From: an uncultured Commensalibacter sp.
GTDB lineage: Bacteria > Pseudomonadota > Alphaproteobacteria > Acetobacterales > Acetobacteraceae
Reading direction: 5' to 3'
Assembly: GCA_945266285.1 (NCBI GenBank)
Contig: CALYOP010000007.1
Span: 83,308-147,307, forward strand
DNA: 64,000 nt
Below are positions 20,590 through 62,072 of this stretch, piece by piece (the first letter of the stretch is position 1; every line of letters starts with the position of its first letter). The notes under the pieces are model-generated. The model saw only the letters and a program-made list of their open reading frames with translations. It had not been told where the DNA came from and searched no databases. Both the position numbers and the translations under genes were made by a program.

Positions 20590-21996
20590 TTAATCTGGTA
20601 GAAATATAACCACTCTCAATCCACCGAGTGGGCTAGTATTTAACTTAATTTCTCCACCGTGTGCTTCGATAATATCTCTGGCTATTGCTAAACCGAGTCC
20701 TGTACCCTTTTTTGCATTTCCTGTTTCAAACGCATTAAAGAGTTTCTCACGCTTTTCAACTGCTATTCCTGGCCCATTATCGTCAATGGTAATCGTGATA
20801 CCATGTGTACGTCGGCTGGCATTTAATGAAATAGCACCTCCATAACGGCGTGCATTATCTAATATATTGTTTAATACACGCCTTATACCACCAGCTCTTA
20901 CTACGATATCGGGCAAATTTGCGGCAATAGAAACAGAAATAAATTCTGTACCGGCACGTTTAGCCGCTGCAACTGCATCTTCGATTAATTGAATCATATC
21001 GGTGGTTTTAGGTTCTTCGATTCCCTCACCCCTGGCAAAGGCCAAATATCCTTCGATCATTTGTGCCATTTCTTCAGTATCCGCAATGATATCGTGAATA
21101 TCGGGAGCAACTTCTTCTGCGTTGATAATTCCTTTTTGCGGAAGCATCGCTAAACTTAAACGTATCCTTGTAAGTGGTGTTCGTAAATCATGAGAAACGC
21201 TGGCAAGAATAACGGTTCTTTGTCGTATAAAACGCAGAATTCGATCGCGCATTAAATTAAAAGCTGAAGCTGCTTTTTTAATTTCCTTAGCACCGACAGG
21301 CCATAATGGGCCGGGATCTCTTCCTTTTCCAAAAAGCTCTACCGCATTCGAAAGACGTCGAATTGCTTTTACCTGAATCCATACAAACAACGCGGCAATT
21401 GTAAACAATAATAATGCACTTCCTACGACCCACCCTACAAAAAGCCATAATGATCCAGCCCCCAGCCGTTTTCGAGTGGTGCTAATTCGTAGCGTAACGT
21501 CATTCATCTCTACATAAATTGTAACTTTTTCTACATCACTCACCCAATCAACATAAAAAGGATAACCCAAACGATCGCTTAGGGTTCGATCGAGAATCTC
21601 ATCAACAGGACCAATGATATTGTGCCGCTGTTTTTTAATGAGATCTGGTTTATCTTTATGCCAACTGACATCCAGTTGAAGAAAATTTTGCACCTGATTT
21701 ACAATATCACGGCGCTCTCGATCCGATTTTACCTGAGCAAACCGATCAACCGTATAGGATATCTCGCCAGAAATCATATCTGTTAACCGTCGTGAAACGA
21801 TATTCAGAAATGTGCCATAAAAAAGTTCGAGTGAAATTGCCTGAGTAAAAAGTAAAGGAATCAATATGATCAGCAAAGATCGACCAAACATAGAACGGGG
21901 TAATACACGCCGTATTATACGATCCCATAGATGTTGTCTTTTTTGAGAAGGCTCCGTTTTAGTGGTTGCCTGCGGTTGAGGAAATGGTTCTGGCAA
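20590..21996 (-). CDS. Sensor histidine kinase (EnvZ-like)
   Basis: This is a 468-residue membrane kinase. Transmembrane segments lie near residues 37-62 (SLLIILIPLLFTQAIS) and 190-215 (LWLFVGWVVGSALLLFTIA), with a periplasmic loop of about 125 residues between them. HAMP and HisKA follow (ASVSHDLRTPLTRIRLSLAML). The ATPase domain has NILDNARRYG (N box), DNGPGIA and GTGLGLAIARDIIEAHGG. The start is a TTG at 21996 with AGGAAG four bases before it. It is the third gene of a MarR-regulator-kinase operon, 19 bp after the response regulator, its likely phospho-partner. The signal sensed is unknown. Confidence 0.9.
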   Translation of the reverse strand: MPEPFPQPQATTKTEPSQKRQHLWDRIIRRVLPRSMFGRSLLIILIPLLFTQAISLELFYGTFLNIVSRRLTDMISGEISYTVDRFAQVKSDRERRDIVNQVQNFLQLDVSWHKDKPDLIKKQRHNIIGPVDEILDRTLSDRLGYPFYVDWVSDVEKVTIYVEMNDVTLRISTTRKRLGAGSLWLFVGWVVGSALLLFTIAALFVWIQVKAIRRLSNAVELFGKGRDPGPLWPVGAKEIKKAASAFNLMRDRILRFIRQRTVILASVSHDLRTPLTRIRLSLAMLPQKGIINAEEVAPDIHDIIADTEEMAQMIEGYLAFARGEGIEEPKTTDMIQLIEDAVAAAKRAGTEFISVSIAANLPDIVVRAGGIRRVLNNILDNARRYGGAISLNASRRTHGITITIDDNGPGIAVEKREKLFNAFETGNAKKGTGLGLAIARDIIEAHGGEIKLNTSPLGGLRVVIFLPD

Positions 21997-22015
21997 GCTT
22001 CTTCCTATCGCTGAA

Positions 22016-22738
22016 TTAGTAACCTGGTTTTAATACGTAACCACGACCTCTTACCGTATGTAAGAAGCGCGGTTGTTTTGGGTCATTTTCAATACGACGC
22101 CTTAAACGGGTAACCTGAACATCAACTGCTCGTTCACCAATTTCTTCAACACCTGTATTCTGAGCAATATCTTCACGTGACAAAATCTCATTAGGACGCC
22201 TTGCCAAAACGGTAAGTAACGCGATTTCCCCTCCAGTAAGATGAATGATCCCCTCTTTTCCACTCAATAACCCTCTGACGGGGTCAAATTCCAATTCACC
22301 TAGCTTTACTACGCGTAAATTATCAGTTGGAGAAGGCGGTTTTAAACGTCTTAACTGCGCTTTAAGCCGTAACAGTAATTCTTTTGGTTCAAAAGGTTTT
22401 CCTAAATAATCATCGGCCCCCGCCTCTAACCCCGCAATGCGATCTTCTGGCTCTCCACGTGCTGTTAACAGAATAATGGGTAGATCCTTACCTTCTTCTC
22501 GCAAAGCATAGGTCAATTCCACGCCATCCTCTCCAGGCATACAAACATCAAGAACAATAGCATCAGGTTGCAAAAATTTGAGCATATCTCTGGCTTCTTT
22601 GGCTGATTCTGCGCTGCTGATGCGGAAACCATTTTCACATAAATAACGTTTTAAGAGTTTGCGTAATCTTTCATCATCATCCACGACCAAAATATGAAGC
22701 GGTTTTTCGTCATCTGGACGATCTTTGCTTTCTTCCAT
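22016..22738 (-). CDS. OmpR-family response regulator (PetR-like)
   Basis: This is a 240-residue response regulator. The receiver domain (15-130) has the acidic pair in LVVDDDERLRKLL, the phosphorylated Asp in DAIVLDVCMPGEDG and the Lys in YLGKPFEPKEL. A winged-helix OmpR/PhoB domain follows, with ILSREDIAQNTG, VDVQVTRLRRRIENDPKQPRFLHTVRGRGYVL. Five bases separate it from the MarR gene upstream, and the kinase follows directly. In Rhodobacter the pair petP (MarR) and petR (regulator) has this layout next to cytochrome bc1 genes. Orthology is likely but the regulon here is not shown. Confidence 0.93.
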   Translation of the reverse strand: MEESKDRPDDEKPLHILVVDDDERLRKLLKRYLCENGFRISSAESAKEARDMLKFLQPDAIVLDVCMPGEDGVELTYALREEGKDLPIILLTARGEPEDRIAGLEAGADDYLGKPFEPKELLLRLKAQLRRLKPPSPTDNLRVVKLGELEFDPVRGLLSGKEGIIHLTGGEIALLTVLARRPNEILSREDIAQNTGVEEIGERAVDVQVTRLRRRIENDPKQPRFLHTVRGRGYVLKPGY

Positions 22739-22743
22739 AATTA

Positions 22744-23280
22744 CTATCCTTTATTTGGTTTAGATGATGATCGATTTTCTAATAAATATTTGGCCTCTTG
22801 ACTGAGCATAGCGTGAAGAACTCTTTGAAAACCCTCTACTGATTGTTGATCTCCCGTTTCACGGAAGGCACGAACAAATTGTTTACGTTGTAATTGGAAA
22901 AGTTCGTCTTCTAAACGCTCTCCCTCTGCGGTTAAACAAAGCTCGCGTTTTCTACGATCCGTTTTTGACTGTTTATATTGAACATAACGATATCGTATTA
23001 CATCTTTCATAACACGTGCTAAACTTTGTTTAGTAATTCCTAATAAATTACGTAATTCTCCAACGGTGAGATCAGGATGATGTTTGATAAATTTTAGCAA
23101 ACGGTGATGGGCATGACCGAGATGATGCTTTTTCAATATTGGTTTAATCATATTATGATTTTCGCACCATACAAAAAAGAACATATCCTGCATAAAGCGG
23201 ATTTGCTCTTCTCGTAAAAATAAAAGCTGTTCTCCCGGTTTATAGATCGGAGAATCCCTAAAAAACGATTGTTGAGACAA
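22744..23280 (-). CDS. MarR-family regulator (PetP-like)
   Basis: This is a 178-residue MarR-type winged-helix protein. The DNA-binding core is LTVGELRNLLGITKQSLARVMKDVIRYRYVQYKQSKTDRRKRELCLTAEGE (about 85-140). Helices at both ends should form the dimer interface. The start codon is a TTG at 23280, preceded by GGGGGTG at close spacing; no in-frame ATG lies near. It heads the operon with the response regulator and histidine kinase. By analogy with Rhodobacter PetP it may work with the response regulator. Ligand and targets are unknown. Confidence 0.87.
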   Translation of the reverse strand: MSQQSFFRDSPIYKPGEQLLFLREEQIRFMQDMFFFVWCENHNMIKPILKKHHLGHAHHRLLKFIKHHPDLTVGELRNLLGITKQSLARVMKDVIRYRYVQYKQSKTDRRKRELCLTAEGERLEDELFQLQRKQFVRAFRETGDQQSVEGFQRVLHAMLSQEAKYLLENRSSSKPNKG

Positions 23281-23479
23281 AACACCCCCATTTTGTCAAT
23301 ATTTTCTTCTAACTATATAAAATAAATCTACTTTCTGCCAGAATTTCGAGTGATAATATTTGAAAGAAGCTTGTCAAAAGCAAATGAATGCGCTAAATCA
23401 TCCTACTCGTTGAATAAATATGATTCCTCTATTTGGAGTCGTAGTGTCTTTATTTTGCATTATAGGAGATAGCAACCAA

Positions 23480-23683
23480 GTGCAGGTTCTGGTTAGAGAT
23501 AATAATATTGATCAAGCATTAAAAGCTTTAAAAAAGAAAATGCAACGCGAAGGTGTTTTCCGTGAAATGAAACTCCGTCGCCATTACGAAAAACCTTCTG
23601 AACGTCGTGCTCGTGAATCCGCCGAAGCTGTTAGACGCGCTCGCAAAATGGAACGTAAACGTTTAGAACGTGAAGGCTTCTAA
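23480..23683 (+). CDS. rpsU: 30S ribosomal protein S21 (GTG start)
   Basis: S21 helps the 30S subunit initiate translation. The 67-residue sequence from [21 protein letters not shown] to [12 protein letters not shown] matches alphaproteobacterial S21 closely. The ORF track starts 20 residues earlier with a hydrophobic extension not seen in the family. The proper start is the GTG at 23480, with AGGAG 11 bases upstream. It stands alone, divergent from the MarR operon, with two hairpins downstream. Confidence 0.93.
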
Positions 23684-23684
23684 T

Positions 23685-23705
23685 AAACCTCTATCATAGA
23701 GGTTT
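23685..23705 (+). terminator. Hairpin right after rpsU
   Basis: AAACCTCTA and TAGAGGTTT form a 9-bp stem with a 3-nt loop, beginning two bases after the rpsU stop codon. It is followed by CTGCATTATT rather than a pure T-run. Confidence 0.65.
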
Positions 23706-23818
23706 CTGCATTATTCCAAGTTTTATTGTTTTAATTATACAAAAGACATTTTGATAAGGGTTTTACCTAAAAATGTCGTTTCCGAAAGTAGTGTGATTTC
23801 CAGACCGCATAAATTGCT

Positions 23819-23846
23819 TGAACCCTTTGACAATTCAAAGGGTTCA
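23819..23846. terminator. Convergent terminator between rpsU and leuB
   Basis: TGAACCCTTTGA and TCAAAGGGTTCA form a perfect 12-bp stem with a 4-nt loop. On the plus strand it is followed by TTCTTTATAT. It lies 14 bp from the leuB stop and probably serves both directions. Confidence 0.75.
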
Positions 23847-23859
23847 TTCTTTATATGAA

Positions 23860-24966
23860 CTATTGATTATTTAATTCTTCTAAAACGGCTTGTCCCATTT
23901 CACTGGTACCAACCAGTTTCTTTCCTGGACCCATAATGTCAGGGGTTCTTAAACCGTTAACCAAGACCTGCTTACAAGCATCGATAATTTTTGCTGCAAC
24001 CACGTCCTCCCCAAAAGAATAACGCAATAACATTGCCAAAGAAAGAATCTGAGCTAAGGGATTGGCTTTGTTTTGTCCAGCAATATCGGGTGCACTACCA
24101 TGAATTGGTTCATAAAGCGCAGGAATTACTCCATTATCACCCCGTTTACCTAAAGTCGCTGAAGGCAACATACCAAGACTTCCGGTTAACATTGCTGCCA
24201 AATCCGACAGAATATCTCCAAAAAGATTACTGGTTAAGATAATATCAAACTGTAAAGGACGACGAACCAATTGCATCGCGCAATTATCTGCCAACATATG
24301 AGATAATTCCACATCGGGATAATCACGCTTTTGAATTTCTGTGACCACTTCTTTCCAAAGTAAACCACTTTCCATTACATTTGATTTATCGACAGAACAA
24401 ACTTTATTCTTTCTTTGACGTGCCAAATCAAAAGCAACACGGGCAATACGTTCGATTTCAACACTTGTGTAAACTTCGGTATTAATCCCTTTTCGGGTTC
24501 CATCCGGTAAATTTTCAATACCTCTTGGACTTCCAAAATATACACCGCCCGTACTTTCCCGAACAATCATTAAATCAAGACCTTTAATGATATCAGGTTT
24601 CACCGTACTTGCATCAATCAAAGGATCAAATACGGTAGCAGCACGCAAATTGGCGAACAAACCCATTTCTTTGCGTAAACCAATAATTCCTAATTCAGGA
24701 CGTTTGTCAAAACCAACTTTATCCCACTTAGGACCTCCAACAGCACCAAACAAAACCGCATCCGCTTGTTTAGCTTTTTCTATAACGGTGTCTGTTAATG
24801 GAATGCCGTGTTGATCAATAGAAGCACCGCCAACCAGATCCTCATCAATCTTAAAAGAGAGGTTAGAATGATTTTCAACCCATTTAAGAAGATTAATAGC
24901 CTGTGCTGTTACTTCAGGGCCAATACCGTCGCCTGGTAATACCAGCAACTTCTTTTCTGTTTTCAT
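23860..24966 (-). CDS. leuB: 3-isopropylmalate dehydrogenase
   Basis: LeuB oxidises and decarboxylates 3-isopropylmalate in leucine synthesis, using NAD+. The 368-residue sequence has LPGDGIGPEV at the start, GAVGGPKWD, LRAATVFDPL, the substrate motif VRESTGGVYFGSPRG, DKSNVMESGLLWKEV, NLFGDILSDLAAMLTGSLGMLPSA and EPIHGSAPDIAGQNKANP. AGGAG lies seven bases before the ATG. It is the last gene of leuC-leuD-leuB, 31 bp after leuD. Confidence 0.97.
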   Translation of the reverse strand: MKTEKKLLVLPGDGIGPEVTAQAINLLKWVENHSNLSFKIDEDLVGGASIDQHGIPLTDTVIEKAKQADAVLFGAVGGPKWDKVGFDKRPELGIIGLRKEMGLFANLRAATVFDPLIDASTVKPDIIKGLDLMIVRESTGGVYFGSPRGIENLPDGTRKGINTEVYTSVEIERIARVAFDLARQRKNKVCSVDKSNVMESGLLWKEVVTEIQKRDYPDVELSHMLADNCAMQLVRRPLQFDIILTSNLFGDILSDLAAMLTGSLGMLPSATLGKRGDNGVIPALYEPIHGSAPDIAGQNKANPLAQILSLAMLLRYSFGEDVVAAKIIDACKQVLVNGLRTPDIMGPGKKLVGTSEMGQAVLEELNNQ

Positions 24967-31433: not shown

Positions 31434-32004
31434 TTAATTTGAGTAACTTTCAGAAATGTTATACTAAATAATACAGTATGGAAATAAAATAATTTCCTGT
31501 CGTGCGTTTGCATTATGATTCTTTTAATAACAAATCGATTTGATCGAACTTATTAATAAATATATGAATCACTTTATCTTTTTTAACATTTATTTCATGG
31601 TTTAAAATTAATTCGATATTAAAATACCTATTATTTCCAGAACAACATCGTTTTCGATCTAATTTTTGAAATTTGGCAAGTAATAGGCGTCCGCAATATC
31701 TTGTCAAATTAATGGAATTTTTTTATTTTACAGTAAAGAAAACTCCATTTAATATATCAATATAGCTTCAATAATATATTTTTATCTATGCATTTTTTGA
31801 TCAGCATTATCATTTAGTAAATATTTTTGCTTTGATAAAATCATTTATTTTTTTAATGTTAATCCTATAACCTACAATAAGCATACAAATTTTCACCTAG
31901 ATTAATTGCAGCTATAGATTTAGTTATTTTATGGCTAATTTCATTCCACATATTTTATAAACAATTGTAGCAATCGCTAAAATCGACTTTTTATTTGAAA
32001 TAAT
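31434..32004. other. 570-bp AT-rich gap with no convincing gene
   Basis: This stretch between the two LTXXQ genes holds no ORF with a plausible start and ribosome site. A near-perfect inverted repeat, AATGGA-x-TTTT with AAAA-x-TCCATT, lies at 31711-31749. The promoter of the downstream LTXXQ gene must lie near 31434-31500. It may be a gene remnant; a minus-strand 64-codon ORF here (31513-31707) was not accepted. Confidence 0.4.
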
Positions 32005-32031
32005 AAAGCTCCAATATTTTATTGGAGCTTT
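32005..32031 (-). terminator. Terminator of the upstream LTXXQ gene
   Basis: AAAGCTCCAATA and TATTGGAGCTTT form a perfect 12-bp stem with a 3-nt loop, 42 bp after the stop of the gene at 32073. Reading leftward it continues ATTATTTC. Confidence 0.8.
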
Positions 32032-32072
32032 ACATTAATATCTAGGTATAATTTATTATGAATAATTTTAAA

Positions 32073-50335: not shown

Positions 50336-53300
50336 TCAAGCACTTTTTTTCAAAACCGAAGTTTCGATATTAATCCCCTGCACTTTGGCATATTCTTTTG
50401 GAACAACATGCCAGAAATGAGGCAAAGCCGTTTGCCAATCATGTAACAGAAAAGAAGCATAACGGCTTTCTGTTTCCTGAACATGGATTTGAATTTGTGC
50501 TTTTAATATTGCTTCCCATTTCGGATCAGTAATTCGCTGCCATAGAAGTGTATCTGGATTAACTTTATTTTCGAATTGACCTTTAGGATCATAAACAAAA
50601 GCCATACCGCCTGTAAAACCGGCACCGAAATTACTGCCAATTTCACCCAAAACGATTACAACACCACCGGTCATATATTCGCAACCATTTGAACCACATC
50701 CCTCAACAACCGCTGTGGCACCAGAATTACGAACCGCAAATCGTTCACCCACACAACCTGCAGCATATAAATATCCTGAAGTTGCTCCATAAAGAACCGT
50801 ATTTCCAATAATCATGTTTTGATTGGAAATAAGACGTGTTTCGGGTGTTTGACGAACGATAATGGTTGCCCCTGATAAACCTTTACCAACATAATCATTA
50901 GCATCGCCAAAAATTTCGAGCTTAAGACCTTGTACCGCAAATGCACCTAAGGATTGACCAGCAGAACCACTCAGACGAACCGTAAGATGACCAGGAGCAA
51001 GTCCCTTCATTCCAAAACGTCGGACAATCATAGAAGATATTCGCGTCCCAATTGCACGATGCGTATTTTGTATATTATAGCGGAGTTGCATTTTTTCACC
51101 ATGTTCAAACAAAGGGTGGGCATCCACGATCATTTGAGCATCAAGTGTTTCTGGAACTTCATTACGTCCTTTACGGGTACAATATCCAGCATAAGCTCCG
51201 GAATCAACTCTGGCCAACAAGGAATTTAAATCAAGATCGTCCAGAAAAGAAGCACCACGTAATACCTGCCGTAGTAAATCGGTGCGCCCGATAATTTCAT
51301 TCAAAGAAGAAAATCCTAAAGAAGCAAGAATATTACGTGCATCTTCAGCAATAAAGGAGAATAAGTTAATAACGCGTTCAGCACTTCCTTCAAATTTAGC
51401 ACGCAAATCTTCGTCCTGAGTACAAACTCCTACAGGACAAGTATTGGAATGACACTGACGCACCATGATACATCCCATAGCAATCAAACTAAGCGTTCCA
51501 ATGCCGAATTCTTCGGCACCTAACATGGCTGCTATAATGACGTCTCTTCCGGTTTTAATTCCACCATCGACCCGTAAGGTTACACGATGCCGTAAACGAT
51601 TTAACATTAAAACCTGATGCGCTTCGGCCAACCCCATTTCCCATGGCATTCCACCATACTTAATCGAAGTCAGTGGCGAAGCTCCTGTTCCTCCATTATG
51701 ACCCGAAATCAAAATAGTATCGGCATTTGCCTTGGCAACCCCAGCAGCGATAGTACCAATTCCAGATGATGCAACCAACTTAACAGCAACCGTTGCTTCA
51801 GGATTGATTTGTTTCAAATCGTAAATAAGCTGGGCCAAATCTTCGATTGAATAAATATCATGATGTGGCGGTGGTGAAATCAAACTTACCCCTGGCACTG
51901 CATGACGCAATTTGCCGATTAATTGAGTAACTTTAAAACCTGGAAGCTGTCCTCCTTCACCGGGTTTGGCCCCTTGCGCAATTTTAATTTCAATTTCTTT
52001 GCAGTTATTTAAATACTCCGCCGTTACACCAAACCTTCCTGAAGCAATCTGTTTAATTGCTGAAGAGGCATTATCACCATTAGCACGCGGTTTATAACGT
52101 TCAGGATCTTCACCGCCTTCACCAGAATCAGAACGTGCCCCTATTCGATTCATAGCAATAGACAAAGTCTCATGCGCTTCTGGACTTAAAGCGCCCAAAG
52201 AAATTCCAGGAGATACCAATCGCTTTCTTAATTGCGTAATACTTTCGACAGATTCGACAGGAATAGGTTTATTCGTGTGTTGAAAATCTAATAAATCTCG
52301 AAGCGCTATTGGCGGTTGTTTACGAACCGCATCAACATATTGTTGATAAAGTGACCAACTATCTTTTTCGACAGCTTTTTGAATCAGTTTGATAATATTT
52401 CCACTTAATGCGTGTGTTTCTCCTTTACCACGCCATTTATATAATCCTCCGATTGGAAGCATTTTGATATTAGGATTCCATGCCTGTTCATGAAATGCGC
52501 TAATATTTCGTGCTATTCCTGATAAACCAATCCCAGAAATACGCGATTGCATACCGGGAAAGAATTCCGCAACCAAAGCACGCGATAAACCGATTGCTTC
52601 AAAATTATAACCACCCCGATAAGAAGCTATAATAGAAATACCCATTTTGGACATGATCTTTAGCAAGCCTTTATCAACCGCTTTGCGATAACGTTCAACA
52701 GCTTCTTCAAGTCCAATCTTGCCGAATAAACCTTTTTTATGACGCTCTGCGATGCTTTCTTGAGCAAGATAGGCATTTACCGTAGTCGCTCCAACGCCGA
52801 TTAAAACCGCTATAGAATGCACATCCAGACTATCAGCAGAACGTACATTCACAGATGTAAATGTCCGTAAAGAACGTTTAACCAGATGTGTATGTACAGC
52901 AGCTGTCGCCAAAACCATTGGAATTTGGGCATTATCAATGGATTGATGTTCATCCGTTAAAAACACATGCGTACAACCACCGCGAACGGCTTCTTCTGCT
53001 TCACGACAAATTCGAGCAATTGCTTGACGTAATCCTTTTTCCTTTTCTTTAACTAAAAAGGTACAATCAATTGTACAACCACTTTTGCCACAAAAATCCT
53101 GTAAAGCCTTAAACTCACTATTCGTTAAAACTGGACTAGGCAATTGAAGCATCTGGCATTGTTCGGATGTCTGATCAAGAATATTTCCCAAATTGCCAAG
53201 ACGTGTGCTCAAGGTCATCACTTGCGTTTCACGCAAACTGTCAATTGGAGGATTCGTAACTTGGCTAAAACGTTGCCTAAAGAAATGCGACAATCCTCGA

Positions 53301-54895
53301 TAACGTTCGCTCAAAACAGCAAGCGGTGTATCATCCCCCATTGAACCAATTGGTTCTTGTGCGTTTTCAACCATTGGCTGTAAAATGGTTTCGAGATCTT
53401 CAATGGTAATTCCAACTGCAAGCTGTCTTCTACGCAATTCATCGGCAGGATAAACAGGTGCTTCCGTATCATGATGCCGAACGATTGAACTAATCTGCTG
53501 CGTGAGTTTTACCCAATCACTATAATCATGTTTATCAACCAGCAGTTCAGTAATTTCGCCTGGTTTATATAGCCGGCAGGTTTCCATATCAAATCCAACC
53601 GTTTCTCCAGGACCCAACCGACCTTTTTCAAGAATCTCGTGCTCTGGGATTCTTACCATGCCCGTTTCAGAACCAAGTATCATTAGATTTTGCGTCGTAA
53701 TTGTATAACGCATTGGACGTAAACCATTTCGGTCAAGACCTGCAATCACCCAACGACCATCCGTCCCACAAATTGCCGCAGGTCCATCCCAAGGTTCCAT
53801 CACCGCATTGCAGTAGCTATACATATCCTTTACTTTTTTAGGGATATTGCTCCGCATATCAATAAAGGGTGGGATCATTAACGCTTTGACTGCTGGAGCA
53901 GAACGTCCAGCAAAAGTCAACAATTCAAAAACATTATCCAAAGCCGCCGTATCTGATCCATTAAATTGGATAACCGGTTTTAAATCGGACATATAAGCAT
54001 CAAGATCTGGATGAGACAAACGGGTTTCATGGCTTTTCATCCAGTTAATATTACCGGATAACGTATTAATTTCCCCATTATGGGCCAATTTACGGAAAGG
54101 TTGGGCTAATTTCCATGTTGGAAATGTATTGGTTGAATAACGCTGATGATAAATTACAAAACGACTGACAAAACGTTCATCCAGCAAATCAGGGTAAAAA
54201 TCCGATACATGTTCCGCCAGAAACATCCCTTTATAAACTACGGAACGACAAGATAAAGAACAGATATAAAGATCAACATGGTTTTCAATCGCCTGTTTTT
54301 CGATACGACGACGAATGATATAAAGATTGCGTTCAAACCGCTCTTCAGAATGATTATGGCTATTACTTATTAATATTTGTTCGATTTCTGGACGAGTGGC
54401 ATTGGCTTTTTCACCAATACAATCCGTATTGATTGGAACCTGGCGCCATCCATAAATTTGATAACCAAAATTAAGGATTTCTGTTTCAATAATTTGACGA
54501 CAACGTTCTTGGCTGGTTAAATCATTTTTAGGTAAAAAAACCATACCAACAGCCAAGCCACCTTCTTTTGCATGTTGATGACCGCTGTGAATGGATTGCA
54601 GAAAAAATTCTTGTGAAATTTCAAGATGTATTCCTGCACCATCTCCTGTTTTACCATCCGCATCAACAGCACCACGATGCCAAAGTGCTCTTAAAGCAGT
54701 TAAACCGGCTTCTACAACATCGCGGCGTTTCTTTCCGTCAAGCGCCAGGACAAATCCAACACCACAAGCATCATGTTCTTGGTCTGGTGAATAAATTCCC
54801 TCAAGCGCTTTAACATTTTTATTCCAATTTTTTACAAAAGTTTCGCCGTTGGTTTCATCTTCTAACAAAGAAGTCATTTTTTCTAAATTATCCAT
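50336..54895 (-). CDS. gltB: Glutamate synthase large subunit
   Basis: GltB makes glutamate from glutamine and 2-oxoglutarate. The protein of about 1,519 residues is processed to leave an N-terminal Cys (HDACGVGFVLALDGKKRRD). Its glutaminase half has HRGAVDADGKTGDGAGIH and RYSTNTFPTWKLAQPFRKLAHNGEINT. The synthase half binds FMN and a 3Fe-4S cluster (MVRQCHSNTCPVGVC) and has ISGHNGGTGASPLTSIKYGGMPWEMGLAEAHQVL. The C-terminal beta-helix is also present. The ORF-track start at 54934 would overlap gltD by 35 bp; the ATG at 54895, four bases after the gltD stop, is preferred. Confidence 0.97.
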   Translation of the reverse strand: MDNLEKMTSLLEDETNGETFVKNWNKNVKALEGIYSPDQEHDACGVGFVLALDGKKRRDVVEAGLTALRALWHRGAVDADGKTGDGAGIHLEISQEFFLQSIHSGHQHAKEGGLAVGMVFLPKNDLTSQERCRQIIETEILNFGYQIYGWRQVPINTDCIGEKANATRPEIEQILISNSHNHSEERFERNLYIIRRRIEKQAIENHVDLYICSLSCRSVVYKGMFLAEHVSDFYPDLLDERFVSRFVIYHQRYSTNTFPTWKLAQPFRKLAHNGEINTLSGNINWMKSHETRLSHPDLDAYMSDLKPVIQFNGSDTAALDNVFELLTFAGRSAPAVKALMIPPFIDMRSNIPKKVKDMYSYCNAVMEPWDGPAAICGTDGRWVIAGLDRNGLRPMRYTITTQNLMILGSETGMVRIPEHEILEKGRLGPGETVGFDMETCRLYKPGEITELLVDKHDYSDWVKLTQQISSIVRHHDTEAPVYPADELRRRQLAVGITIEDLETILQPMVENAQEPIGSMGDDTPLAVLSERYRGLSHFFRQRFSQVTNPPIDSLRETQVMTLSTRLGNLGNILDQTSEQCQMLQLPSPVLTNSEFKALQDFCGKSGCTIDCTFLVKEKEKGLRQAIARICREAEEAVRGGCTHVFLTDEHQSIDNAQIPMVLATAAVHTHLVKRSLRTFTSVNVRSADSLDVHSIAVLIGVGATTVNAYLAQESIAERHKKGLFGKIGLEEAVERYRKAVDKGLLKIMSKMGISIIASYRGGYNFEAIGLSRALVAEFFPGMQSRISGIGLSGIARNISAFHEQAWNPNIKMLPIGGLYKWRGKGETHALSGNIIKLIQKAVEKDSWSLYQQYVDAVRKQPPIALRDLLDFQHTNKPIPVESVESITQLRKRLVSPGISLGALSPEAHETLSIAMNRIGARSDSGEGGEDPERYKPRANGDNASSAIKQIASGRFGVTAEYLNNCKEIEIKIAQGAKPGEGGQLPGFKVTQLIGKLRHAVPGVSLISPPPHHDIYSIEDLAQLIYDLKQINPEATVAVKLVASSGIGTIAAGVAKANADTILISGHNGGTGASPLTSIKYGGMPWEMGLAEAHQVLMLNRLRHRVTLRVDGGIKTGRDVIIAAMLGAEEFGIGTLSLIAMGCIMVRQCHSNTCPVGVCTQDEDLRAKFEGSAERVINLFSFIAEDARNILASLGFSSLNEIIGRTDLLRQVLRGASFLDDLDLNSLLARVDSGAYAGYCTRKGRNEVPETLDAQMIVDAHPLFEHGEKMQLRYNIQNTHRAIGTRISSMIVRRFGMKGLAPGHLTVRLSGSAGQSLGAFAVQGLKLEIFGDANDYVGKGLSGATIIVRQTPETRLISNQNMIIGNTVLYGATSGYLYAAGCVGERFAVRNSGATAVVEGCGSNGCEYMTGGVVIVLGEIGSNFGAGFTGGMAFVYDPKGQFENKVNPDTLLWQRITDPKWEAILKAQIQIHVQETESRYASFLLHDWQTALPHFWHVVPKEYAKVQGINIETSVLKKSA

Positions 54896-54899
54896 GGGC

Positions 54900-56366
54900 T
54901 TATACGACTTTCTCTTTTGTATTTTTTTCTTCAACAGAATGCTTTTCTTTTTGACTTAAATAGCGATCAATCTGATGCGCAGCCTCTCGTCCATCACGAA
55001 TAGCCCAGACCACGAGGCTTGCCCCACGAACGATATCCCCACCGGCATAAACGCCATCCAGACTGGTCGAAAAAGTTTTTTTATCGATTTTTATAGTTCC
55101 AGAAGGTGATAATTTTAAACTGGGTTCATTCCATAATTGGGGCAAAGGTTCTGGATCAAATCCAAAAGCTTTGATCACCATATCGGCGGGTAATGTAAAT
55201 AAACTATCTGATAATAATTTAACGGTTTGGCGCCCACTTGCATCAGGAAGCCCAAGCTCTGTTCGGATGGCTAGAATAGAATTAACTTTTTCAGTCCCGA
55301 TAAATGCCTCAGGTGCAGCTTGCCAGATAAATTCAACCCCTTCTTCTTCGGCATTTTTTACCTCACGCATCGAACCGGGCATATTATATTTATCACGCCG
55401 ATAAAGACATTTAACCGATTTTGCACCTTGTCGAATGGCAGTACGCAAGCAATCCATTGCCGTATCACCACCGCCGACGACAATGATATCTTTGTCCTTG
55501 GCATTAAACATAGGATCAGGTGAAGAATTACCAGATTGAATGGCTTTGTTTGAAGCCACCAAATAATCAAGAGCCTGAATAACACCATTCAGATTCGTTC
55601 CAGGAACTGTAACATCTTTTTTCTTATAAACACCCGTTGCCAAAAAAATAGCATCGTGCAGTTTGCGTAGATTGGCAAATGATAAGGTATGTTTAGAGTC
55701 CTGATCGCTGATCGATATTCCGAAATGAAAGATAATACCCGATTTTTCAAGCCATTCTTGTCGACGGGCTATGGTTTCTTTTTCGAGTTTGAAGGTCGGA
55801 ATACCATATGTCAGCAATCCTCCCGCACGATCGTAACGATCATAAATGTGAACTTGATAACCTTTTTGTCTTAAAATACCCGCAGCAGCCATTCCACATG
55901 GCCCCGAACCAATTATTCCAATTGATTGCTTTTTTTCAATAATGGGCACAATCGGTTGAACCCAACCTTTTTCAAATGCGGTATCAGTAATAAAGGATTC
56001 CACAGCACCAATCGTCACACTATGAAAATCCGCTTCGATAACACAATTCCCTTCACAAAGCCGATCCTGTGGGCAAATTCTACCGCAAATTTCTGGAAAG
56101 CTATTTGTAGAGGAGGATAAATTATAAGCTTCCTCCAACCGATCTTCTGCCGTCAGTTTTAACCAATCAGGAATATAATTCTGCAGTGGACAATTAACGG
56201 AACAAAACGGAACGCCACACTGTGAACAGCGTGATGCTTGTTCTTGCGCTCTGTCCAAAGAAAAACGGCGATAAATTTCTGCAAAATCTAATTTCCGCTG
56301 GGATGCAGGGCGTTTATCAGGCTGATGCTGTTCTACAGCGATAAATTTTAACATTTTGTTGGACAT
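54900..56366 (-). CDS. gltD: Glutamate synthase small subunit
   Basis: GltD takes electrons from NADPH through FAD and Fe-S centres to GltB. The 488-residue protein has two N-terminal Cys clusters (RCSQCGVPFCSVNCPLQNYIP and CGRICPQDRLCEGNC). It also has the FAD site IGIIGSGPCGMAAAGILRQKGY, the NADPH site IVVGGGDTAMDCLRTAIRQGA and the C-terminal GVYAGGDIVRGASLVVWAIRDGREAA. The ORF track begins at a TTG (56393). The ATG at 56366 fits better but has no ribosome site, and a 12-bp GTAC-centred dyad ends exactly before it. It is the first gene of the gltD-gltB operon. Confidence 0.96.
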   Translation of the reverse strand: MSNKMLKFIAVEQHQPDKRPASQRKLDFAEIYRRFSLDRAQEQASRCSQCGVPFCSVNCPLQNYIPDWLKLTAEDRLEEAYNLSSSTNSFPEICGRICPQDRLCEGNCVIEADFHSVTIGAVESFITDTAFEKGWVQPIVPIIEKKQSIGIIGSGPCGMAAAGILRQKGYQVHIYDRYDRAGGLLTYGIPTFKLEKETIARRQEWLEKSGIIFHFGISISDQDSKHTLSFANLRKLHDAIFLATGVYKKKDVTVPGTNLNGVIQALDYLVASNKAIQSGNSSPDPMFNAKDKDIIVVGGGDTAMDCLRTAIRQGAKSVKCLYRRDKYNMPGSMREVKNAEEEGVEFIWQAAPEAFIGTEKVNSILAIRTELGLPDASGRQTVKLLSDSLFTLPADMVIKAFGFDPEPLPQLWNEPSLKLSPSGTIKIDKKTFSTSLDGVYAGGDIVRGASLVVWAIRDGREAAHQIDRYLSQKEKHSVEEKNTKEKVV

Positions 56367-56450
56367 GATAGTACCATCGTGTAAAGGCGACAAAAAAAGA
56401 TGGTACTATCGCTACACTATATAACAACAATAAAAAAGACAGTACTGCTG
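56367..56450 (-). promoter_or_regulatory. gltDB promoter region with three GTAC-centred dyads
   Basis: Three near-palindromic sites lie ahead of gltD: GATAGTACCATC (56367-56378), GATGGTACTATC (56399-56410, the exact inverted copy of the first) and GACAGTACTGCT (56438-56449). The first two are 32 bp apart (about three helical turns). A -10-like TATAGT (minus strand, 56416-56421) lies between the second and third, so the sites cover the -35, the start point and the start codon. The first two can also fold into a 12-bp stem with a 20-nt loop. No Shine-Dalgarno is visible. The operator-array reading is inference. Confidence 0.55.
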
Positions 56451-56480
56451 ACCTATGTCTAATTTATTGATTTTTCGAGA

Positions 56481-57431
56481 TTAAACAGGAGCATTTTCAA
56501 AATCATCTGCAGGTCTATAAGCAAATAAAAACTCAGGAGCCAGCATTTCAATCGACATTGGTTTTATTCCCAAATTATCAAAATCATTGACGCCATTATT
56601 CAAAACGCAATCGTTATTCATCATATTTAATAACGAGGCATTCATGAAGGATCCTGGCAGATTCTGTAATATTTTGGCCATTATTGTCATTAAACCAGCC
56701 GGAAAAGCACAAGGGATTGTATTTTGGTGTAACCATTTAATCATCCAGCTGATTAATTCATGGTTTGTATAAACTTCTGGTCCTGCAATTTCGTAACTGT
56801 GGCCATTTGTATCTGCAAGATTAATGATACGAATAACCGCATCCGCAATATCGCCAACGTAAACAGGTTGAAGCCTTACATTGGATTTATAAACCAACAT
56901 GATGGATAAGGCTTTAATTTGTCGGGCTAATACATTTAAAAAATGATCGTCAATTCCAAAGGGAATAGTATGGCGTATAATCGTAGCGGCTGGAAAAAAT
57001 TTTTTGACTTCATTTTCTCCTATTTTTCTGGACTGTAAGAATAGAGAATTACTATTTTCATCAGTACCAACAGTCGAAAGATGAATTAATTTCTTCACCC
57101 CTGCTGCTGCACAAAGCCGCGCAACGCGCCCAGCTCCATCGACATTAAGTCTATTTAACTCCGGTTTTTTGTGACTAAATTGTTTGCGCGAAGCATTAAC
57201 AACAATTTCAGCCCCTTCAACCGCACGAGTCACAGTTTCTTCTTTTGTAACCGAACTATAAAGGGGAACCATCTGGCCCACATCCCCCATTGTACGAAGA
57301 CTAACGGTTAATGCTGGTGAAGGAACAGAAACTCTAACAACATATCCTTGCTTTAAAAGTCGTGAAACAATATAACGTCCAACAAATCCTGTACCACCAA
57401 AAACGGTTGCGACATTTCTTATTTTACTCAT
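56481..57431 (-). CDS. NDUFA9-like NAD(P)-binding protein (complex I assembly type)
   Basis: This is a 316-residue atypical short-chain dehydrogenase-fold protein. It has the Rossmann start VATVFGGTGFVGRYIVSRLL, VVNASRKQF, LIHLSTVGTDENS and VQPVYVGDIADAVIRIIN, the pattern of the NDUFA9/39-kDa complex I subunit family. In alphaproteobacteria these proteins are linked to NADH dehydrogenase. The active-site Tyr-x3-Lys is not obvious, typical for the atypical group, so it may bind NADPH without catalysis. AGGAGG lies eight bases before the ATG. It is followed by the gltD promoter and preceded by tRNA-Leu on the other strand. Confidence 0.85.
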   Translation of the reverse strand: MSKIRNVATVFGGTGFVGRYIVSRLLKQGYVVRVSVPSPALTVSLRTMGDVGQMVPLYSSVTKEETVTRAVEGAEIVVNASRKQFSHKKPELNRLNVDGAGRVARLCAAAGVKKLIHLSTVGTDENSNSLFLQSRKIGENEVKKFFPAATIIRHTIPFGIDDHFLNVLARQIKALSIMLVYKSNVRLQPVYVGDIADAVIRIINLADTNGHSYEIAGPEVYTNHELISWMIKWLHQNTIPCAFPAGLMTIMAKILQNLPGSFMNASLLNMMNNDCVLNNGVNDFDNLGIKPMSIEMLAPEFLFAYRPADDFENAPV

Positions 57432-62024: not shown

Positions 62025-62072
62025 GATAGCCAATAATGAAAATTGGATTAATTATTGGCTATCAAGTTTTTT
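62025..62072 (+). terminator. Strong terminator after the SGNH hydrolase
   Basis: GATAGCCAATAAT (62025-62037) and ATTATTGGCTATC (62051-62063) form a perfect 13-bp stem with a 13-nt loop, followed three bases later by six Ts. Confidence 0.85.

Follow-up and report, generated by a model that had tools for sequence, protein, structure and literature searches.

A palindrome conserved before gltD in Alphaproteobacteria as a candidate MarR operator, beside a probable species-specific leader hairpin

The gltD promoter of an uncultured Commensalibacter sp. raises the question of which of its inverted repeats act as DNA and which as RNA, and of which regulator would read them. The gene encodes the small subunit of glutamate synthase, the principal route by which ammonia reaches amino acids when nitrogen is limiting. 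The original prediction, made on the window (the whole 64,000-nucleotide stretch that was analysed), was of three GTAC-centred dyads over the gltD promoter and start codon, forming either an operator array for an unknown nitrogen regulator or an RNA hairpin that hides the start. The features discussed below are collected in Table 1.

Table 1. Positions of the promoter, leader and gene features in the window.
Feature	Position	Strand	Basis or remark
27-bp palindromic candidate operator before gltD	56432..56458	-	core GTCAGCAGTACTGTC 56438-56452, axis 56445; contains the third dyad
Putative -35, CTGTCT	56437..56442	-	within right half of operator; 17 bp from -10
Putative -10, TAGTGT	56414..56419	-	+26 to +31 from operator axis
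Estimated transcription start	56407..56409	-	inside upstream 12-mer; 7-8 nt after putative -10
Hairpin 5' arm, GATAGTACCATC on - strand	56399..56410	-	inverted-repeat search and RNA fold
Hairpin 3' arm, GATGGTACTATC on - strand	56367..56378	-	last base directly before AUG; inverted-repeat search and RNA fold
gltD, glutamate synthase small subunit, target gene	54900..56366	-	TIGR01318 above cut-off, Fer4_20, Pyr_redox_2
gltB, large subunit, downstream of gltD	50336..54934	-	ORF limits, true start may be inside; annotated from sequence
NDUFA9-like NAD(P)-binding protein gene, upstream of gltD	56481..57431	-	Pfam Epimerase/3Beta_HSD/NAD_binding_10
MarR-family regulator, proposed operator binder	22744..23280	-	MarR_2 above Pfam cut-off; AlphaFold2 MarR fold
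OmpR-type response regulator, next after marR, same strand	22016..22738	-	profile matches
EnvZ-type histidine kinase, next gene, same strand	20590..21996	-	profile matches

The two exact 12-mers were confirmed by a sequence check: GATAGTACCATC (56367-56378) is the exact reverse complement of GATGGTACTATC (56399-56410), at 32 bp from start to start with 20 bp between them. The gltD ATG (56366-56364) is, as predicted, not preceded by a Shine-Dalgarno sequence. A scan of the 2.16-Mb genome, which the original prediction had suggested, found exact copies of GATRGTACYATC in the gltD pair alone. With 2 mismatches allowed, the 12-mer pattern occurs 7 times in the window against 4.6 expected. Since this count is near background, the exact pair is notable, yet it is not a genome-wide motif. 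In the 64 kb, 5 perfect inverted repeats have arms of 12 bp or longer and a loop of no more than 60, compared with 0-2 in simulated sequence. Perfect 13-bp inverted repeats also occur at 62025-62063 and 32004-32032; both are intergenic and probably terminators.

On the minus strand the gltD leader reads ...TAGGTCAGCAGTACTGTCTTTTTTATTGTTGTTATATAGTGTAGCGATAGTACCATCTTTTTTTGTCGCCTTTACACGATGGTACTATCATG, and its RNA has the potential to form a 12-bp hairpin that begins close to the 5' end of the mRNA and reaches the base preceding the gltD AUG. Folding of the 12-mer stretch gave z = -2.8, with 1/200 shuffles as good. The leader matched no Rfam family (one chance match only), and a search of a plasmid collection returned no match. 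Most likely, the exact 12-mers are not operators but pair with each other in an RNA hairpin beside the start codon that is specific to this species.

The gltD upstream regions of eight genomes of the same genus were compared with this leader. Their alignment lacks the upstream 12-mer in all eight, and the start-proximal arm is partly kept, aligning with GATGGTAMTATT / GATGGTAMTATTATG in four congeners and with a variant in a fifth. The conservation of the dyads expected among relatives holds for the third site but not for the two exact 12-mers, which are not kept as DNA. The best-kept leader block is GGTCAGYAKTACTGTCTTTT. The congener leaders contain a segment, UUAGGURUAAU, able to pair with the start-codon sequence AUUAUGCCUAA, and in several of them an inner stem contains the Shine-Dalgarno sequence. 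Pairing between leader and start region reached p <= 0.05 against shuffles in 6/7 distinct congener leaders, compared with 3/74 outside the genus, and 84% of the cells of the congener structure are paired versus 25-47% when it is slid. RNAalifold identified no pair in the leader stem with changes on both sides; compensatory changes are few, and covariation is weak. In the window species, the 12-bp hairpin, which is unique to the species, replaces the congener pairing and ends one base before the AUG. As a computed pairing potential, leader/start-codon pairing is kept within the genus under other letters. The hairpin alternative fits the exact pair and gains some comparative support in the genus, although the covariation behind it is weak.

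The pair could also be a neutral by-product without a regulatory role, left by a template switch that recently duplicated part of the leader in inverted orientation; this reading bears on the hairpin alone and is compatible with a MarR operator, and we place it at somewhat less than an even chance. The reverse complement of the upstream arm plus loop carries GTAAAGGC(GA) and GATGGTACTAT, the Shine-Dalgarno and pre-start sequence of the congeners. Because the upstream half resembles inverted congener pre-start sequence in this way, the hairpin may plausibly have arisen by template switching, and it may be of recent origin or neutral. Local alignment to the congener pre-start sequence gave p = 0.001 for L004, 0.02-0.03 for three others and 0.4 for L008. 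However, the match is in part a consequence of the reverse complementarity of the arms, p = 0.005 was also obtained with L012, from an unrelated genus, and the congeners have a differently spelled pairing of leader and start.

The third site, GACAGTACTGCT (56438-56449), is real, but it is symmetrical about base 56445, off the middle of its GTAC. On the minus strand it forms the core of GGTCAGCAGTACTGTC, and it belongs to a palindrome of 27 bp whose sequence is different from that of the 12-mers. A position weight matrix (PWM) built from 79 gltD upstream regions gave the consensus wwATAGGTCAGTAATACTGACCTAww, and the palindrome lies 50-150 bp upstream of gltD across Alphaproteobacteria. In the 64-kb window the outer site is the best match, with a score of 27.9, followed by 13.9. 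A PWM trained on 24 Acetobacteraceae sites only was applied to 25 other upstream regions, of which 22, including SAR11, Thalassospira and Rhodobacterales, passed against shuffles; the register of the training sites was taken from the full PWM, making this a hold-out of letters and not of register. Six of seven SAR11 gltD regions score at least 20. A 2-mismatch operator scan of small genomes remained at background level and gave no second clear target in the window's genome. On this pattern of conservation, the outer site is a predicted regulator-binding site common to Alphaproteobacteria, SAR11 included.

The palindrome also helps to place the promoter. In most congeners the spacing between the palindrome axis and a -10-like hexamer is constant, with 17 bp to the putative -35; the hexamer reads TAGAAT, TAGCAT, TAACAT or TAGGAT there (TAnnnT-like). 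From the placement of -35 and -10 relative to the palindrome, we infer a start near 56407-56409. The NDUFA9-like gene is kept upstream of gltD in Acetobacteraceae, and no regulator gene adjoins gltD, the neighbours being the NDUFA9-like gene or uppP. A GACTCGC/ACTCGC block, a GANTC methylation-type site in several gltD regions, lies about +24 to +30 from the axis in L017, L026, L027, L028, L076, L101 and L106. Other groups carry CTGGTAAT at this place. In non-Acetobacter groups the conserved block, CTGG or GACTCGC, lies ~25-28 bp downstream of the axis. The block downstream of the axis is possibly a -35 or a methylation-sensitive element.

A class-wide scan points to the genes that accompany the palindrome. 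Near-consensus copies with at most 2 mismatches were computed for 385 alphaproteobacterial genomes and found in 61, compared with ~19 for the reversed control. About 50 of the 67 palindromes examined precede one of a few genes: gltD/gltB (22), ior, encoding indolepyruvate ferredoxin oxidoreductase (21), marR/ilvE (5) and a lysE-type exporter (2). The palindrome is present in the marR-ilvE gap, also in SAR11. When the gltD-derived PWM was run on 60 further marR promoters, the best site fell between -160 and +60 of marR in 60/60, and 54/60 sites exceeded the 99% null; part of this autoregulatory signal is coding, since the palindrome overlaps the start codon at many marR genes. In L271 and L272, both of one genus, an amino-acid exporter gene of the LysE family has the palindrome 18-23 bp upstream.

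One palindrome of the class scan preceded a MarR-family gene, and the orthologs of its protein include the one encoded at 22744-23280 in the window. The latter contains a MarR winged-helix domain (PF12802, 40.3 bits, cut-off 27); its AlphaFold2 model (mean pLDDT 85) has the MarR fold, with the best PDB matches all from the MarR family. It scores below the cut-off of every NCBIfam equivalog. Across 12 diverse orthologs, the residues TKQS..R of the recognition helix do not vary. An ortholog is present in 9/9 genomes of the genus and in 6/7 SAR11 genomes. Across the class, this MarR occurs in 57/61 palindrome-positive genomes versus 150/324 others (Fisher p = 4e-13), a comparison in which genome size and kinship are uncorrected confounders; no MarR was detected in four of the palindrome-positive genomes, and L068 and L071 have MarR present and the gltD site absent. 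The "unknown nitrogen regulator" of the original prediction is thereby narrowed to this little-studied MarR-family candidate.

In many genomes marR and ilvE are divergently transcribed, and ompR-envZ comes after marR. Most Alphaproteobacteria have the divergent arrangement, unlike this genus, in which marR-ompR-envZ lies directly downstream of leuB (leuC, leuD and leuB upstream; window 20590-24966, minus strand). No palindrome was found at marR itself in the window's genome or its congeners, where gltD is the only clear target seen. Because marR there lacks a palindrome of its own, the MarR-operator link in this genus rests on orthology. The order of marR and an OmpR-type response regulator gene at the window locus is of the PetP/PetR type; the name "PetP-like" used for the window MarR refers to this gene order. 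A search for a MarR-gltBD-ilvE link returned nothing relevant among openly licensed papers, and the regulon may still be described elsewhere.

It is conceivable, though unlikely, that a different regulator of nitrogen or amino-acid metabolism (Lrp/AsnC, an LsrB/VtlR-type LysR, NtrC or NtrX) binds the palindrome and that marR is just one more target. Such regulators do control gltBD elsewhere, as NtrC does in some alphaproteobacteria (PMC5343134), and in one family (L131, L262, L263 and L264) the palindrome separates ior from a divergently oriented gene for an LsrB-related LysR, which is 76-79% identical within the group. Against Lrp/AsnC as the universal binder, PF01037 is absent from all seven SAR11 genomes, some of which are partial single-cell genomes, and six of these have the clear gltD site described above. 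An LsrB/VtlR-type LysR was rejected for this genus, as the eight congeners hold at best paralogs of ~27% identity. The window's genome itself has an LsrB-type LysR (G000:C4:43523-44407; 42% identity to the L131 protein), which is absent from the eight congeners. The LsrB box (TGCA-N6-GCAT) and the NtrC box (TGC-N11-GCA) (PMC10746234) also differ from the palindrome. IscR was considered as well, gltB being up in a Caulobacter iscR mutant (PMC11475020); its published motifs, compared by eye, do not resemble the palindrome.

That all three dyads form one operator array for a single regulator, suggested by the presence of three sites with GTAC within 84 bp of promoter sequence and by 12-mer arms that are also near-direct repeats (10/12), is very improbable: one candidate operator stands, the third site with a PWM score of 28, whereas the 12-mers score 1 and below -15, and the upstream 12-mer is missing in all congeners and has no further copy in the genome.

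We propose, with a probability of about 0.7, that the outer dyad serves as operator for a PetP-like MarR dimer controlling gltBD and that the 12-mers are the arms of a 5' leader hairpin abutting the AUG. The dimer, encoded with ompR-envZ, would bind the outer site and thereby control gltBD. In other Alphaproteobacteria, the same MarR would also control ior, ilvE, lysE-type genes and its own gene. As the operator overlaps the putative -35 here, a bound dimer may compete with or contact RNA polymerase. Our guess, held slightly more firmly than its opposite, is repression released by an amino-acid-related ligand. The hairpin, with which the gltD mRNA would begin, would abut the AUG and probably lower or condition translation initiation, while in the congeners the UUAGGURUAAU/AUUAUGCCUAA pairing would mask the AUG.

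The window MarR and its orthologs resemble the repressors MarR, MepR, CouR, FabT and HpaR in their winged-helix fold, the promoter-overlapping palindrome and, outside this genus, a site in the promoter of marR itself. They differ from these repressors in the invariant TKQS..R helix, the operator wwATAGGTCA-N7-TGACCTAww and the targets gltBD/ior/ilvE. PetP/PetR of Rhodobacter capsulatus is alike in gene order, an OmpR-type response regulator being encoded after a MarR-type protein; we know of no gltBD regulon for PetP. Lrp controls gltBD in E. coli and GltC regulates it in B. subtilis; these and the alphaproteobacterial NtrC likewise act on glutamate synthase transcription, but regulator family and operator differ. 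Start-masking leader hairpins, such as RNA thermometers and translational operators, share with the gltD leader a stem that adjoins or covers the start codon and the lack of a free Shine-Dalgarno sequence; in contrast to them, this leader has no Rfam match and is confined to one genus.

The interest of the locus lies in the class-wide conservation of the operator and its tie to a MarR regulator. The control of glutamate synthase is poorly known in alphaproteobacteria with few regulators, SAR11 above all, and a conserved operator with a named candidate gene gives a directly testable regulon hypothesis. This MarR, usually divergent from ilvE and upstream of ompR-envZ, has probably long regulated glutamate synthase, ilvE and indolepyruvate oxidoreductase throughout the class, and it would be among the few nitrogen-assimilation transcription factors of SAR11.
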